DNA of 64,000 bases from Methanomassiliicoccales archaeon (GTDB lineage Archaea > Thermoplasmatota > Thermoplasmata > Methanomassiliicoccales > UBA472). Where the stretch lies: positions 1-64,000 of the forward strand of contig DASXVU010000047.1 in the NCBI GenBank assembly GCA_036504055.1, read 5' to 3'. A program made the position numbers and the translations under genes. Of the stretch, positions 15,454-53,529 are shown piece by piece (the stretch's first letter is position 1; the number at the start of each line of letters is the position of its first letter). Below the pieces are notes generated by a model that saw nothing but the letters and a program-made list of their open reading frames with translations, ran no database searches and was not told the origin of the DNA.

Positions 15454-16518
15454 TTATTTGTAGCGCAATATCCCACCGATCTTGACCGTTGAGGTAAACG
15501 TCTTGCCAAAATCCTCGTCCTCACCGATCATGAGCACATCCGTATCGTATTGGTCCGAGATATTTTTCAGGCCCTCGATCGTTTCGATATCCAGGGAATC
15601 GCTCAAGATCAGGGTCTGCATCTGCCCAACCTTCAGTCTTTTCAAGGTTTCGTCCATTCCGGACACCTGCAGACCGTCGCTTCCGGCCTCCGACCAGAAG
15701 CGGTCCAGTATTCTCTTCTCCTGAACATAATGGCAAGTGGTCAGTTGTCCTTCTGCCGCGGCCACGGCTTCCTTCAGGCCATTTTCGTTTGTGTGTTCAA
15801 CATCAAAGACCCCTGTCACCATCTTCCTGAGCTCATGATGAAGATAGTCCCCGGCCATGAAATCGTTCTTCGTCATCGCCGGTCCGCCAATGATCACTCC
15901 CCTGAGTCCTTTTCCCAGGAATGCCTCGGTGCATCTTTCAGAGGTCTTCTTGAAGTATTCATTGATAGCGTCATCCCTCAAACGTTCGAATCTCAGGCTG
16001 GACATGCCGCCGTGATGGTGCTTGTTCGACACCTGAGATTTGATTTCCTTGTAGACCCGGACATTCGATCCCTTGAGATAACCGATGGTCGCATCTGCCA
16101 GGTCCAATACCAGGATGCCATATGTCTCTTCGACAGCTATCATTTGGTAAAGTGGATCAAGGTAGAATCCCCGCTCGCATTTGTAGATGAAAGACAGTAC
16201 AGGATAGGGCGGTTCCAGCGCCTGGCGATGCAGCCTGCCATTGACCTCCCCGAACAAAAGAACGATTCCATTTCTTTTCGCAACCGGGTCCATGGTGCCC
16301 ATTTGATTCAGGATCGCGGAGACGGTGAGCCTTGTCGATCTAGCTATTTGGTCAGACGATTCATCGTGGCTCCGTTCATTGATACCTTGGAGCTATTCGA
16401 TGACCTCACCGATCGGCTTCCCTGGGGGAACATACAGGGAGATCAATACTGCGTGCGGTGCAATGATATTGCTGACATGGTCCAGTTGTTTCCGGAAAAG
16501 GCAAAGATTGAACTCCAT
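15454..16518 (-). CDS. aRF1-like release factor paralogue with in-frame UAG at codon 42
   Basis: Reading from the ATG at 16516-16518 gives MEFNLCLFRKQLDHV then SLYVPPGKPIGEVIE, which matches the start of aRF1 domain 1. Codon 42 is TAG (16393-16395). The same frame then continues without a stop to 15454 through all three aRF1 domains (about 353 residues in total). The region after 16302 alone, from an internal ATG, gives 282 residues lacking most of domain 1. Functional motifs are degenerate: the stop-codon-reading NIKS region is replaced by DQIARSTR, and the peptidyl-hydrolysis GGQ reads GGM in KHHHGGMSSLRFERLR. Domain 3 is shorter than usual, without the minidomain, but ends with the family's GGILRYK. 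It is therefore not a normal termination factor. UAG-decoding methanogens are known to carry a second, inactive aRF1 homologue; this resembles it. Pyrrolysine insertion, readthrough, internal start, or pseudogene are all possible. Confidence 0.75.
16393..16395 (-). other. In-frame TAG (UAG) codon within aRF1-like gene
   Basis: CTA on the plus strand is TAG at codon 42 of the aRF1-like frame. Homology to aRF1 domain 1 is continuous on both sides in one frame, so it is not explained by a frameshift or by joined unrelated genes. Confidence 0.8.
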
Positions 16519-17108: not shown

Positions 17109-18751
17109 TCATTTCTTTGCTTTCCTCGTGCTCTGCAGGCCCTTGAACTTGAATACCTTTTCAGGGCATCCGCGTTCGCAGCGCAGACAGGCCGTACCAT
17201 TGCACAGATCGGAAGCCACCGTTATCTCCGGTTCTCCGCTCGCATTCTTTTCGACCGTCAATGCTTTCTCCGGGCAATTCTCAGCGCACTTCATGCACGA
17301 TATGCATCCGTCGAAAGTTCCCACAAGCTTGGTCCCGATGTCAGTGAGGATCTTCAATCCCTTGTCGCCCAGGACCGGTATGTCTCGCTGCACGATCTTG
17401 TACACATTCGCCTCACGGAACTTCTCTGGTAAAGGCTGGATGCCCATGCTCTGTATGAAGAAGTTGTATGACGAGAGCGGCATTCCTTCCTGCCAAAGCG
17501 CCAGCTCCTGGATGTATAGGGTCTCGAACACCTTATCGGTGGCGAACATGATGTGGTTGGACCGGATGCCGTGCGCCATGTCCTGCAGCTCCTCCATCAG
17601 ATTAGGGTCCATGACTATGTCAGTAGCCATCGCCAGCGAAGTGTTGCCGACCTGGTAGATGTTCTTCGGCGTGGGCGGGATCAGTCCGACCCTTTGCGCC
17701 TTTAACGCGTCAACATACGTTCCGGACGCGCCGCTCATGTACATGCTGTCCAAATCGTCGAATGTGATCCCTGCCTTCTCCAGCAGGGTGAAGTGACCTG
17801 CCCTCATGGCGCCGAACGCCTTTGCCGCCTCTTGGAAGTCATGGTCGTCAATGTAAACGCCATCCTGAAGGTGCAGCTTGCCGTCCGCTGTCAATATGTG
17901 CGGTGCCTTAATCAGACCGGTGTCCATGGCAGTGGCGATGGCAGCGATGACGCCAGTGCCGGTCACTCCCCTGGATCTGCCGTGCATGTTCCCCTCTTCG
18001 ACTATGTCCCCCGATGTCGGGTCGACCTTGTCCCCATCGACCGGCATCAGTTGGTCATCCAGCACCCTGCAGCGCCAGTGGCCCTCAAAGTCTATGTCAG
18101 ATATGGCACCTGGCGAGGCCAGCATGCCAAAGCGGATGGCCTGTCCTTCCATGGCCGGACCGGCAGCAGCGGAACCAGTGTATATCTCGTCGCCTACTTT
18201 GAGCGCCATCTCGGCGTTGGTTCCGTAGTCGGTGACCAAGCACGGCTCCTTTCGGTCGAGCAGTCCGGTCTTGAACATCATGGCCAATGCGTCGGCACCA
18301 ATCTCGTGCGCAATCGATGGTGGTACGTACACCTCGGCGTTCGGTCCGCCCAGATCGATTCCTAGCGCCTCGGAGGACATGACCTTAGCGTCCCGCTTCT
18401 GTGGCGTTACTCCCTTCGATTTCAGAGATTTCTCTCCCACATACGCAAGGTCCCTCAATTCCATGTTCTGGAATATCGAGAGCTGGATCGGGTTTCCACA
18501 TACGGCCATCCTCTCAACTTTGGTAAGATCGATCTCCAAGAGCCGGACGAGGCGATTGACCGTCTCGATCATCAGCTCATTGGCCAAGTTCTGGTCCACT
18601 TCTATGCAGTAGGTCAGGTGGTCCATCACGTTCGCTCCGGGGACCGGATGCCTTACGGTCATGGCCGTCGAGATGATCTTTTTGGTGCTCAGATCTATTG
18701 CATGCACTCTTGTTCCGCTCGTGCCACATCGATTGATATTCCATATCCCAT
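17109..18751 (-). CDS. ramA: RamA-type corrinoid protein reductive activase, frameshifted near the start
   Basis: RamA uses ATP to drive reduction of inactive Co(II) corrinoid proteins to Co(I) in methylamine and related methyltransferase systems. The uninterrupted frame (17109-18707, GTG start) gives 532 residues: an ASKHA-like body with VTDYGTNAEMAL and GSAAAGPAMEGQAI, and a C-terminal pair of 4Fe-4S motifs, CISCMKCAENCP and CNGTACLRCERGCP. The missing N-terminus is present one frame over: ATG at 18749-18751 (with GAGGT upstream) encodes MGYGISIDV. The continuation GTSGTRVHAIDL resumes in the main frame only if one G is added near 18724. The paralogue at 27898 reads DLGTSGYRTHLVDL unbroken. 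So a single base is missing, by mutation, assembly error or programmed slippage. It follows the flavodoxin gene with a 104-bp gap. Confidence 0.88.
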
Positions 18752-18855: not shown

Positions 18856-19434
18856 TCATTCACGCGCCTTTGGGCAAAGATCAATGAAGAAAAACTGGGA
18901 AGGGAGCCAGAAAGCCCCCGTTCCCCTCATCTCAGAGATCTCTGCTTTATGCGTTATTTCCCGTGCGAAGTTCCGTGCCTTGGTCCGATCATGTGCATTA
19001 GAATGCCCTACGCTCAGAATACGCGTTTCACCGAAGCCCCTCATTTTAGTATCTGGAGATTTCATAAGGGCCTCTGCTAGATCTCTGTCGGGTTCTCCCT
19101 GACAACTAAACATACCAATTACCCTCGTTCCATTTGCCGCCTCTTTGCAATTCTCAAATACCGCTCCGAGTGGCGGAGAATTGGGGACCATTGCGTGGGC
19201 AATAAACGGCGTAAATGTTTTGCCTCGACCATTATATTCGAGGAAGTTCTTTATCTCCTTCGGAGCTCCCACCATATTCACAGGGAAGCCCGGGAATATC
19301 AAATCATTTCCATCCAGACTTTCAATTTCAGCTATTGGTCGGATGTCTTTCTTCCCTTTGACTTCCTCAAAGATGGATTCTGAGATCATCTTCGTGTTCC
19401 CTGTTACTGACAAATTAGCCACCGAAGTGCTCAT
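18856..19434 (-). CDS. Flavodoxin-family protein
   Basis: 192 residues. The N-terminal SVTGNTKMISESIFEEV is the FMN phosphate-binding loop and first helix of flavodoxins, followed by DLIFPGFPVNMVGAPKEIKNFLEY (flavin-ring contact region) and VIGMFSCQGEPDRDL. It is probably an electron carrier. Its position immediately upstream of ramA-1, on the same strand, suggests it may supply electrons for corrinoid reactivation; this is inference. The promoter carries the 27-bp motif shared with the DUF1638 gene. GGAGGGTATTAAATG gives a strong ribosome-binding site. Confidence 0.75.
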   Translation of the reverse strand: MSTSVANLSVTGNTKMISESIFEEVKGKKDIRPIAEIESLDGNDLIFPGFPVNMVGAPKEIKNFLEYNGRGKTFTPFIAHAMVPNSPPLGAVFENCKEAANGTRVIGMFSCQGEPDRDLAEALMKSPDTKMRGFGETRILSVGHSNAHDRTKARNFAREITHKAEISEMRGTGAFWLPSQFFFIDLCPKARE

Positions 19435-19979: not shown

Positions 19980-20732
19980 CTACTCCACCAAGTTACTGCT
20001 AATGTCTTCCAATAGCATCGTAATGCCGTCTAGAACTCGCAACCCTCGGGACGTAACAGAATAGAGGTGGCTCTTCCGGTCGTAGTGTATGTATTCCACC
20101 TCGAGAAGCGCCTTTAGATGAAATTGGAGATGTCCTTTCTTCAGGCCTAGTTCCTTGCATAATTCGGCTAGACTGTTGCTTTCCCTAGTCAGTATCAGCA
20201 TGACCTGGACCCTTTTTGCGTTGGATAAAGGAGCCAGCAATCTCTCCGCCGTCTCCGGCGACAGCTTTCCCTTTTCCCGTTTCGTTATGATTGGAGGGAT
20301 AACGGGGATGCCTGGGGCGGTCTGGTTGAAGATATGGTCGGAGCCATTGAGATACTCCTTGATCTGGTCGACAAGCTGTAGCTCGAAGCTGTTAATCCGG
20401 TCGGAGCTACTCATTCCGTTGGTGACGATGCCAGTTTCGAAAGCATTCAAGAAAGTTAGTGCCCTTTGTTTCCCGTCGCTCTGGAATATGGTGACCGTCC
20501 GGTCTACAATGTCCTGAAGTGTTTCCTTCGAAATCTCTTCCTGCCGTTCCTTAACCGATCCATCCGGAACCCGGGAATAGTGCCGTGCGATCCGGTCCTT
20601 TAGCACTGTCTCTATCTGATCGCCGAACACCTTGCGCATGTCGTCCTGCCTGAGGTTGAGGATCGATGTGCTCAATCCGCGCACCTCCTGCCGTAACGCC
20701 TTGATCTGCTCTCGAATATCATCGTTCTGCAT
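19980..20732 (-). CDS. Winged-helix (ArsR-like) transcriptional regulator with long N-terminal domain
   Basis: 250 residues. The N-terminal ~150 residues are helical with a coiled-coil start (REQIKALRQEVRGLSTSILNL). Residues 165-240 are a winged helix: LSNAKRVQVMLILTRESNSL, LCKELGLKKGHLQFHLKALL as recognition helix, then a beta wing. It is divergent from DUF1638 and its ATG is only 11 nt from the shared 27-bp motif, so it is the best candidate for the protein binding that motif and controlling ramA-1, flavodoxin and DUF1638. Methylotrophic archaea use similar regulators for methyltransferase genes. Ends in TAG. Confidence 0.75.
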   Translation of the reverse strand: MQNDDIREQIKALRQEVRGLSTSILNLRQDDMRKVFGDQIETVLKDRIARHYSRVPDGSVKERQEEISKETLQDIVDRTVTIFQSDGKQRALTFLNAFETGIVTNGMSSSDRINSFELQLVDQIKEYLNGSDHIFNQTAPGIPVIPPIITKREKGKLSPETAERLLAPLSNAKRVQVMLILTRESNSLAELCKELGLKKGHLQFHLKALLEVEYIHYDRKSHLYSVTSRGLRVLDGITMLLEDISSNLVE

Positions 20733-20824: not shown

Positions 20825-21658
20825 ATGAATTCTAAGGGCAGGAATGGATCGGGGAGGCTTATGATGATGGCCTGCCCCATGCTGGAGGATGAGATGATTC
20901 ATAATCTGACCACCGACCCAGATGAGAAAAGGATATTCCTCGTTACGAACAAGAATATTGAGACGCTGCTCCCCAAGCTTAAGTCAAATAATGTCGAGTT
21001 CGAGCAAATCTCTGAGGATGATTTTTTCAACGAGAATGCGAATGTGCCTAGGGAAGGGTACAACATCATCATCTGGATGATGAGTCTCGGACTCCACTCG
21101 GAGCCCAAGACCCTCGCAGCGGAAATCCGCAGGCTGATGCTTACAGTCCCAGGTCATGCCGATGGTATAGCGCTTTACTATGGGCTATGTGGAAACGGGC
21201 TCGAAGGGATCCGGGAATGGGGCAGGGAGAACCTGCCGATACCGATGACGCTCTTCACCGATAGGGAAGGTAAGCTGTGCGACGACTGCATATGTGTGCC
21301 ACTCGGTAGCAGCGAAAGATACTTGAATCTCATGAAGAAGCATTGCGGGGTGATGTACCTCACGCCCGCCGTCGCATGCAACTGGAAGGAGTTCCTCTAC
21401 CATACCGAGCTGTTCAAAGGCCTCGATACCATAGATATGAGCCGTAAGGAGTTCATGAAGCTCATGCTCGATATGGCGCACTACAAGCAGTGCCTGAAGA
21501 TCCAGACCAATCTCGGGGACCAGGCAATCTTCCAGGAAAAGTGCGAAGAGTATGCCAAAGAGCTGGAGTTGGAACTGATCGAGCTCGAAGGCGGGTGGGT
21601 GTCCACAGAAGTCGCGGACCGCATGTATGCCGAGGCAAAATCTTTCCTCGGGGAATGA
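20825..21658 (+). CDS. DUF1638 family protein
   Basis: 277 residues. The opening LMMMACPMLEDEMIHNL, the middle GLCGNGL, CDDCICVPLGSSERYL and CGVMYLTPAVACNW are the conserved cysteine-containing blocks of DUF1638, a family common in methylamine-using methanogens and in bacteria with corrinoid methyltransferases. The biochemical role is not established. Several cysteines could bind metal or cobalamin intermediates, but that is a guess. GAGGAG precedes the ATG. Its promoter shares the 27-bp element with the flavodoxin/ramA-1 operon, supporting a role in corrinoid methyl transfer. Confidence 0.8.
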   Translation: MNSKGRNGSGRLMMMACPMLEDEMIHNLTTDPDEKRIFLVTNKNIETLLPKLKSNNVEFEQISEDDFFNENANVPREGYNIIIWMMSLGLHSEPKTLAAEIRRLMLTVPGHADGIALYYGLCGNGLEGIREWGRENLPIPMTLFTDREGKLCDDCICVPLGSSERYLNLMKKHCGVMYLTPAVACNWKEFLYHTELFKGLDTIDMSRKEFMKLMLDMAHYKQCLKIQTNLGDQAIFQEKCEEYAKELELELIELEGGWVSTEVADRMYAEAKSFLGE

Positions 21659-35717: not shown

Positions 35718-35734
35718 GTGCTCCCGCCGGGATT
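35718..35734 (-). repeat. tRNA-proximal copy of the 17-bp attachment repeat
   Basis: Identical to 22093-22109 and contained, apart from its first base, in the 3' end of the tRNA-Glu gene. Orientation fits insertion of a 13.6-kb segment at the tRNA 3' end. Confidence 0.65.
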
Positions 35735-35819
35735 TGAACCCGAGTCGTTGACTTGCTTCCGCGAAGCAACTCTCCGCGCCGAAAGGCCAACATGATTGAC
35801 CGGACTACACTACGGGAGC
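35719..35819 (-). tRNA. tRNA-Glu (anticodon TTC) with a ~26-nt intron
   Basis: On the minus strand the acceptor GCTCCCG pairs with CGGGAGC, followed by discriminator A. The T-arm reads TCGGG-TTCAAAT-CCCGG. The anticodon stem TTGGC/GTCAA encloses CTTTCGG with anticodon TTC. Between loop and 3' stem strand lies an extra ~26 nt containing the hairpin TTGCTTC-GCG-GAAGCAA. The intron GAGAG can pair with CTTTC of the anticodon loop, giving a bulge-helix-bulge at the canonical 37/38 position. CCA is not encoded. A TATA-like TTTAAGTA lies about 28 bp upstream. Confidence 0.9.
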
Positions 35820-53374: not shown

Positions 53375-53445
53375 GCCCCCGCCACCGCTGAGGTCGACGA
53401 TAAGGATTGCGGAATTTGATGGACAAGACTTTAGAAAAATGATGG

Positions 53446-53529
53446 TGGAGGAGAAGGGATTTGAACCCTTGGACCGCTAGGGACTAGACCCTGAATCTAG
53501 CGCCGTTGGCCAAGCTTGGCTACCCCTCC
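53446..53529 (-). tRNA. tRNA-Leu (anticodon CAG)
   Basis: 84 nt on the minus strand. The acceptor GGAGGGG pairs with CTCCTCC (one G-T), with discriminator A. The anticodon stem CTAGA/TCTAG encloses TTCAGGG with anticodon CAG. A long variable arm follows, as expected for leucine. The T-arm is AAGGG-TTCAAAT-CCCTT. No intron and no encoded CCA. Confidence 0.93.

Follow-up and report, generated by a model that had tools for sequence, protein, structure and literature searches.

The aRF1-like frame and its surroundings

The window (the whole stretch of 64,000 nucleotides analysed here, from the genome of a Methanomassiliicoccales archaeon that we call G000 or the host) carries on its minus strand a long frame related to the archaeal release factor aRF1. 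An earlier note on this DNA had claimed that the aRF1 homology runs in one frame across a TAG codon. This was borne out: inspection of the minus strand of the window revealed exactly one internal stop in the 354 codons, the TAG at codon 42. With that TAG read as sense, the protein scores 275.3 bits against the NCBIfam model aRF1_eRF1 (TIGR03676; curated cut-off 234.7 bits). The part downstream of the TAG matches the Pfam domains eRF1_2 (1e-33) and eRF1_3 (1e-7), and the aRF1 structure 4af1 from the PDB aligns to residues 8-326, spanning the TAG (4.6e-52). The features of the locus are listed below, together with their state in the orthologues from three further genomes, G126, G136 and G134.

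15454..16518, minus strand: complete reading frame of the aRF1 paralogue, with the TAG read through (354 codons, from the ATG at 16518 to the TAA at 15454)
16393..16395, minus strand: in-frame TAG, codon 42, aligned with the Tyr of most canonical aRF1s (AYLR)
16385..16398, minus strand: GAATAGCTCCAAGG, the longest identical run in the three TAG-bearing orthologues, centred on the TAG
16354..16365, minus strand: NIKS position, here Asp-Glu-Ser-Ser (residues 52-55), by ungapped alignment with canonical aRF1s
16300..16302, minus strand: internal ATG, codon 73; ATT (Ile) in G126 and TTG (Leu) in G136
16291..16293, minus strand: internal ATG, codon 76; shared by G000, G126 and G136 but not by G134
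16165..16185, minus strand: YxCxxxF motif (YKCERGF); kept in G000 and G126, Cys lost in G136 and G134
16003..16011, minus strand: GGM replacing the catalytic GGQ, within the block NKHHHGGMSSLRFERLRDDAINEYFKK; GGM in all four orthologues
17109..18707, minus strand: RamA-type corrinoid protein reductive activase of methylamine methyltransferases (TIGR04270, 726 bits)

The activase gene is the next gene upstream of the paralogue in the host and lies on the same strand. It was not seen adjoining the paralogue in the three relatives, and by eye no neighbour genes are common to the four loci. Further genes of a methylamine-type neighbourhood in the window encode a flavodoxin (18856-19434, minus strand), an ArsR-type regulator (19980-20732, minus strand) and a DUF1638 protein (20825-21658, plus strand). 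Elsewhere in the window the tRNA searches differed: a tRNA at 35719-35819 (minus strand), possibly with an intron, was found by Rfam and missed by ARAGORN, and a tRNA-Leu at 53443-53529 (minus strand) was found by ARAGORN and missed at the Rfam gathering threshold.

The motifs were called from an alignment with 20 canonical aRF1s that is ungapped at NIKS. The earlier note had described the stop-reading motif as degenerate and QIAR-like; degenerate it is, although the aligned residues 52-55 are DESS and not QIAR. Across the four orthologues the counterparts read DESS, DESS, EDPS and DIDP. The GTS loop is gone as well (GTE has become HAV), and both GTS and NIKS are lost in every orthologue. The change from GGQ to GGM, which the note had also reported, was confirmed in all four copies, and the surrounding block NKHHHGGMSSLRFERLRDDAINEYFKK is invariant among them; domain 3 of the paralogue has lost its zinc-binding minidomain. 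In human eRF1 some substitutions of the GGQ glutamine stay active, so that this residue is not an absolute requirement. Judging by these motifs, the paralogue seems to have lost stop-codon reading and, since the release-factor motifs are lost, probably peptide release too. The predicted structure shows the aRF1 domains (pLDDT 78; pTM 0.56, so that the domain arrangement is uncertain). Archaeal and eukaryotic RF1 top its fold matches, among which structures of the bacterial factor Balon also appear. The model places codon 42 within the second N-domain helix (residues 36-52), and termination at the UAG would therefore leave an incomplete N domain, a fragment of 41 residues. A start at codon 73 or 76 would remove most of the N domain.

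Orthologues, selection and history of the gene

Our search covered 147 genomes of the order and 400 of the class, along with the GTDB r220 contig collection and viral contigs. Among all these the paralogue is present in four genomes only: the host, G126 (Stordalen MAG fen_33, Methanomassiliicoccaceae; 87% identity to the host protein), G136 (bin.505; 72%) and G134 (PtaU1.Bin124; 59-60%). It was not found in the viral contigs, and it is absent from G138 and G141, two other genomes with pyl genes. A profile built from the four paralogues gives its members 594-651 bits, while the next best proteins, canonical aRF1s, reach at most 250. All four share the ATG start, with MEFNLCLFRK as the N terminus (MQYNLCLFRK in G136). 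Three copies are complete, with 353-354 codons and a TAA end, and that of G136 meets the end of its contig at codon 336.

Alignment of the orthologues, which the earlier note had asked for, showed that the TAG is conserved in two other genera. The same codon is TAG in G000, G126 and G136, which belong to three genera, and GAG in G134. With four-fold sites as a proxy for neutral change, an unconstrained triplet would stay identical across the three TAG-bearing copies with p of about 0.014. When columns were shuffled with the TAG kept as given, a run as long as GAATAGCTCCAAGG around the TAG had p = 0.04, and by this run-length test the unusual nucleotide conservation around the TAG is no more than suggestive. 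In the paralogue the UAG is followed by C (+4); the same base follows 1 of 38 sampled TAG terminators in the host, but 9 of 32 in G126. Downstream of the UAG we found no known read-through element. A PYLIS-like RNA structure at that position was rejected as well (z = 0.11, with a weak consensus fold).

The dN/dS comparison that the note had proposed shows purifying selection both upstream and downstream of the TAG. Between G000 and G126 the ratio is 0.13 overall; codons 1-41 give 0.09, codons 43-73 give 0.28 (0.31 when extended to codon 76) and the rest 0.03-0.17. The fast-evolving stretch downstream of the TAG is the former stop-reading loop. With changes polarised on the tree, the nonsynonymous to synonymous count is 18:31 for the branch of G000 and 29:42 for that of G126 (p = 0.71); the latter is constrained as much as the former.

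The paralogues form one clade (100/100), distant from the canonical aRF1s of the order. G000 and G126 are 87% identical in the paralogue and only 72% in the canonical aRF1, whereas for G000 and G136 the values are 72% and 80%. These identities point to horizontal movement of the paralogue between genera, the TAG included.

UAG and pyl genes in the host and its relatives

The host genome (2.66 Mb, 99.9% complete) was placed among Methanomassiliicoccales genomes. Its normal aRF1, in which NIKS and GGQ are present, is encoded on a separate contig (G000:C7), and there is a weaker third member of the aRF1 family, probably Pelota. The search for pyl genes that the earlier note had suggested as a check was positive. 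One host contig carries pylT (L041:3820-3889; 94 bits), pylS (292 bits, without the N-terminal domain), pylB (463 bits), pylC (360 bits), a RamA gene and mtbB with an in-frame TAG. A further frame on that contig is consistent with pylD, as a candidate that the profile search did not confirm. Two mtmB genes, each with an in-frame TAG, lie on another contig than the pyl cluster. The mtbB gene (L041:600-2027, G000:C31) has, besides its in-frame TAG (DGI*IGVG), a second TAG that is apparently terminal, with a further stop six codons on. Its message would thus hold two UAGs of apparently different meaning, the end of the gene being suggested by the profile match.

UAG is not avoided as a terminator in the host and is an ordinary stop there. 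It ends 14-19% of sampled host genes, compared with 14-16% in G135, which lacks pyl. A global reassignment of UAG was rejected, as TAG ends 14-28% of genes in every genome sampled. For M. luminyensis 11% of genes have been reported to end in UAG, and for 'Ca. M. alvus' 1.6% (PMC3941956, PMC4153887). A survey of about 460 kb of host sequence (17% of the genome) turned up no convincing interior TAG beyond this one and those of the methylamine genes; almost all of its matches were antisense shadows.

The relatives present a less uniform picture. In the draft MAGs G126 and G136 (91% and 95% complete) we did not find pylS, pylB, pylT, mtmB or mtbB, and the best matches of the pylT model were tRNA-Gly. 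Contigs below 3 kb were masked in these two genomes (about 4% of bases sampled), so that with incomplete assemblies the absence of pyl is not proven. Where visible, in G134 and G141, mtmB lies near pylS, and one missing locus could therefore explain each genome. We estimate that a pyl locus missed in both G126 and G136 is unlikely (roughly 1%). Either pyl is absent from the assemblies, or it has recently been lost, or UAG is read without pyrrolysine in these organisms. Misbinning was considered and rejected, as by tetranucleotide profile each of the two contigs belongs with its own genome. In G134 pyl is present, yet codon 42 of the paralogue is GAG, hence a UAG gate would not be universal.

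Two side observations concern other members of the class. G138 (C28) and G141 (C16) have two pylT genes each, one near pylS and one beside mtmB; in G138 the mtmB-adjacent copy is on another contig, and one G141 copy is divergent (56 bits). In G236, an 85% complete MAG from another family of the class in which pylS was not found, a canonical-looking aRF1 gene (G236:C48, L167:7146-8381; NIKS, GGQ and zinc ligands present) has one in-frame TAG in the context EEEV*GLIVIDRNEAT, where other aRF1s have Tyr (F in one). This TAG could be an error, a mutation or a second recoded release-factor gene.

Possible roles of the UAG and comparison with known systems

We give about even odds (probability roughly 0.5) to the reading that the gene encodes a non-releasing aRF1 paralogue which is kept by selection and whose synthesis is gated by UAG decoding, most likely as pyrrolysine in the host. 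Lying at codon 42, the UAG would gate synthesis: unless it is decoded as an amino acid, most likely pyrrolysine in G000, no full-length protein would be made. Such a gate might couple the protein level to the balance of Pyl-tRNA and aRF1. The product, retaining an intact ribosome-facing middle domain, might sit in the ribosomal A site or bind aEF1A without releasing and so block aRF1; when Pyl-tRNA is plentiful this would bias UAG towards read-through and close a positive loop. We propose a role that favours read-through because UAG still ends about 14-19% of the host's genes. The frame, its conservation, the selection on it, the loss of the motifs and the pyl genes of the host are direct observations; the reading as pyrrolysine in G000, the gating and the molecular role are what we infer, the last of these from the motifs alone. 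Only tentatively, and as something short of probable, do we suggest an anti-termination switch in which UAG decoding yields a non-releasing aRF1 mimic that in turn lessens termination at UAG.

Other readings have to be weighed against the gated paralogue. It might be possible that a Tyr, Gln or Glu codon turned into TAG in a pyl-bearing ancestor, that pyrrolysine was accepted in the N domain and that the TAG has stayed for no reason other than being read as sense, with no regulation at all. The GAG codon of G134 is one step from TAG and implies that pyrrolysine is not needed for function, and the 16 additional predicted Pyl proteins of 'Ca. M. alvus' have been read as stable mutations (PMC4153887). 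Where UAG is an ordinary terminator, however, read-through is not free, and the lack of comparable interior TAGs in the 17% of the host genome surveyed and the unusual conservation around this one fit poorly with mere tolerance, which we regard as rather unlikely. The TAG kept in G126 and G136, where pyl genes were not found, and its conserved context with a +4 C would be accounted for if the weak UAG C context were read through without pyrrolysine, by a near-cognate tRNA and at a rate set by release-factor supply, as an in-frame counterpart of the prfB frameshift. Yet the host has Pyl-tRNA as a direct reader of UAG, the region downstream shows neither structure nor a known read-through element, and the masked contigs may conceal pyl in the two MAGs; we therefore find this explanation doubtful.

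Improbable to a similar degree is a hibernation role, in which the protein would be an archaeal counterpart of bacterial Balon and fill idle A sites, and the UAG gate would be tied to growth state and not to the meaning of the stop codon. Balon likewise lacks NIKS and GGQ (PMC10901736), its structures are among the fold-search matches, and the Rv2629 family model gives 34.9 bits to the paralogue and 23.5 to canonical aRF1, both far below the cut-off of 320. Sequence and fold are nevertheless far closer to aRF1 (275 versus 35 bits), and the region of the GGM loop is intact and invariant, unlike the lasso loop of Balon. That the locus makes two products, a 41-codon ORF ending at the UAG and a separate protein starting at the ATG of codon 73 or 76, seems very unlikely. 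The ATG of codon 76 is found in all three TAG-bearing orthologues and not in the TAG-less one, but we saw no Shine-Dalgarno-like sequence upstream of it. The ATG at 16302, an alternative start in the earlier note, is disfavoured by its lack of conservation. Moreover, codons 43-76 are free of indels and change in the manner of coding sequence (dN/dS 0.31; third-position excess p = 0.05), and the downstream protein would be without most of the N domain, the start of which is formed by the conserved 41 codons. A pseudogene, a sequencing error or a misbinned contig is barely credible: a lone stop in a gene is the usual mark of decay, which the note had also considered, and G126 and G136 are draft MAGs, but the identical TAG stands in three independent assemblies, other lesions are lacking, dN/dS is low and the tetranucleotide profiles argue against misbinning.

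If the switch were real, the sense meaning of UAG would be turned on with methylamine growth while UAG remains an ordinary stop, and the inactive second aRF1 of pyrrolysine archaea would gain a function. To our knowledge, the choice between stop and sense at UAG in pyrrolysine users is unsolved, and we know of no general cis element. A conserved UAG in an aRF1 paralogue that is unable to recognise stops would make this decision directly accessible to genetics. Annotation pipelines would split such a gene at the UAG, or by curated score call it an active release factor, in contradiction to its motifs.

An inactive second aRF1 is already known. In M. acetivorans and M. mazei a second homologue showed no release activity in the assay cited (PMC2933860, PMC2943090), the same two reviews disagree about that of M. 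barkeri, and the inactive second aRF1 of Methanosarcina has had no assigned function since 2009 (PMC2933860). The gene described here resembles it as an extra aRF1 homologue in a pyrrolysine-using methanogen; by the published descriptions it differs in belonging to another order and to four genomes only. What appears to be new is the conserved in-frame UAG. The literature that we found reports none in the Methanosarcina second aRF1, our search, mostly outside subscription literature, returned no report of one in any aRF1-paralogue gene, and the main texts of publications on predicted Pyl proteins make no mention of a release factor among them. With mtmB, mtbB and mttB the paralogue shares an in-frame UAG, the first two being present in the same host. 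In those genes, however, pyrrolysine is an invariant catalytic residue, while the codon of the paralogue lies near the N terminus, outside the catalytic sites, and is GAG in one orthologue. Like Balon, the product is an aeRF1-family protein without NIKS and GGQ (PMC10901736), but it scores 30-35 bits against the families of Balon-type factors and 275 against aRF1. A further parallel is prfB, the gene of RF2, in which an early in-frame UGA is followed by C and the active factor limits its own synthesis (PMC12421855). Here, too, a release-factor gene has an early in-frame stop followed by C, and full-length protein would depend on the balance of termination and decoding. In contrast to prfB, the frame is kept, UAG serves as the stop and stop reading has probably been lost from the product, which makes classical negative autoregulation by that product unlikely. 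The paralogue would thus be a gene of the release-factor family governed by decoding of an in-frame stop instead of by frameshifting.
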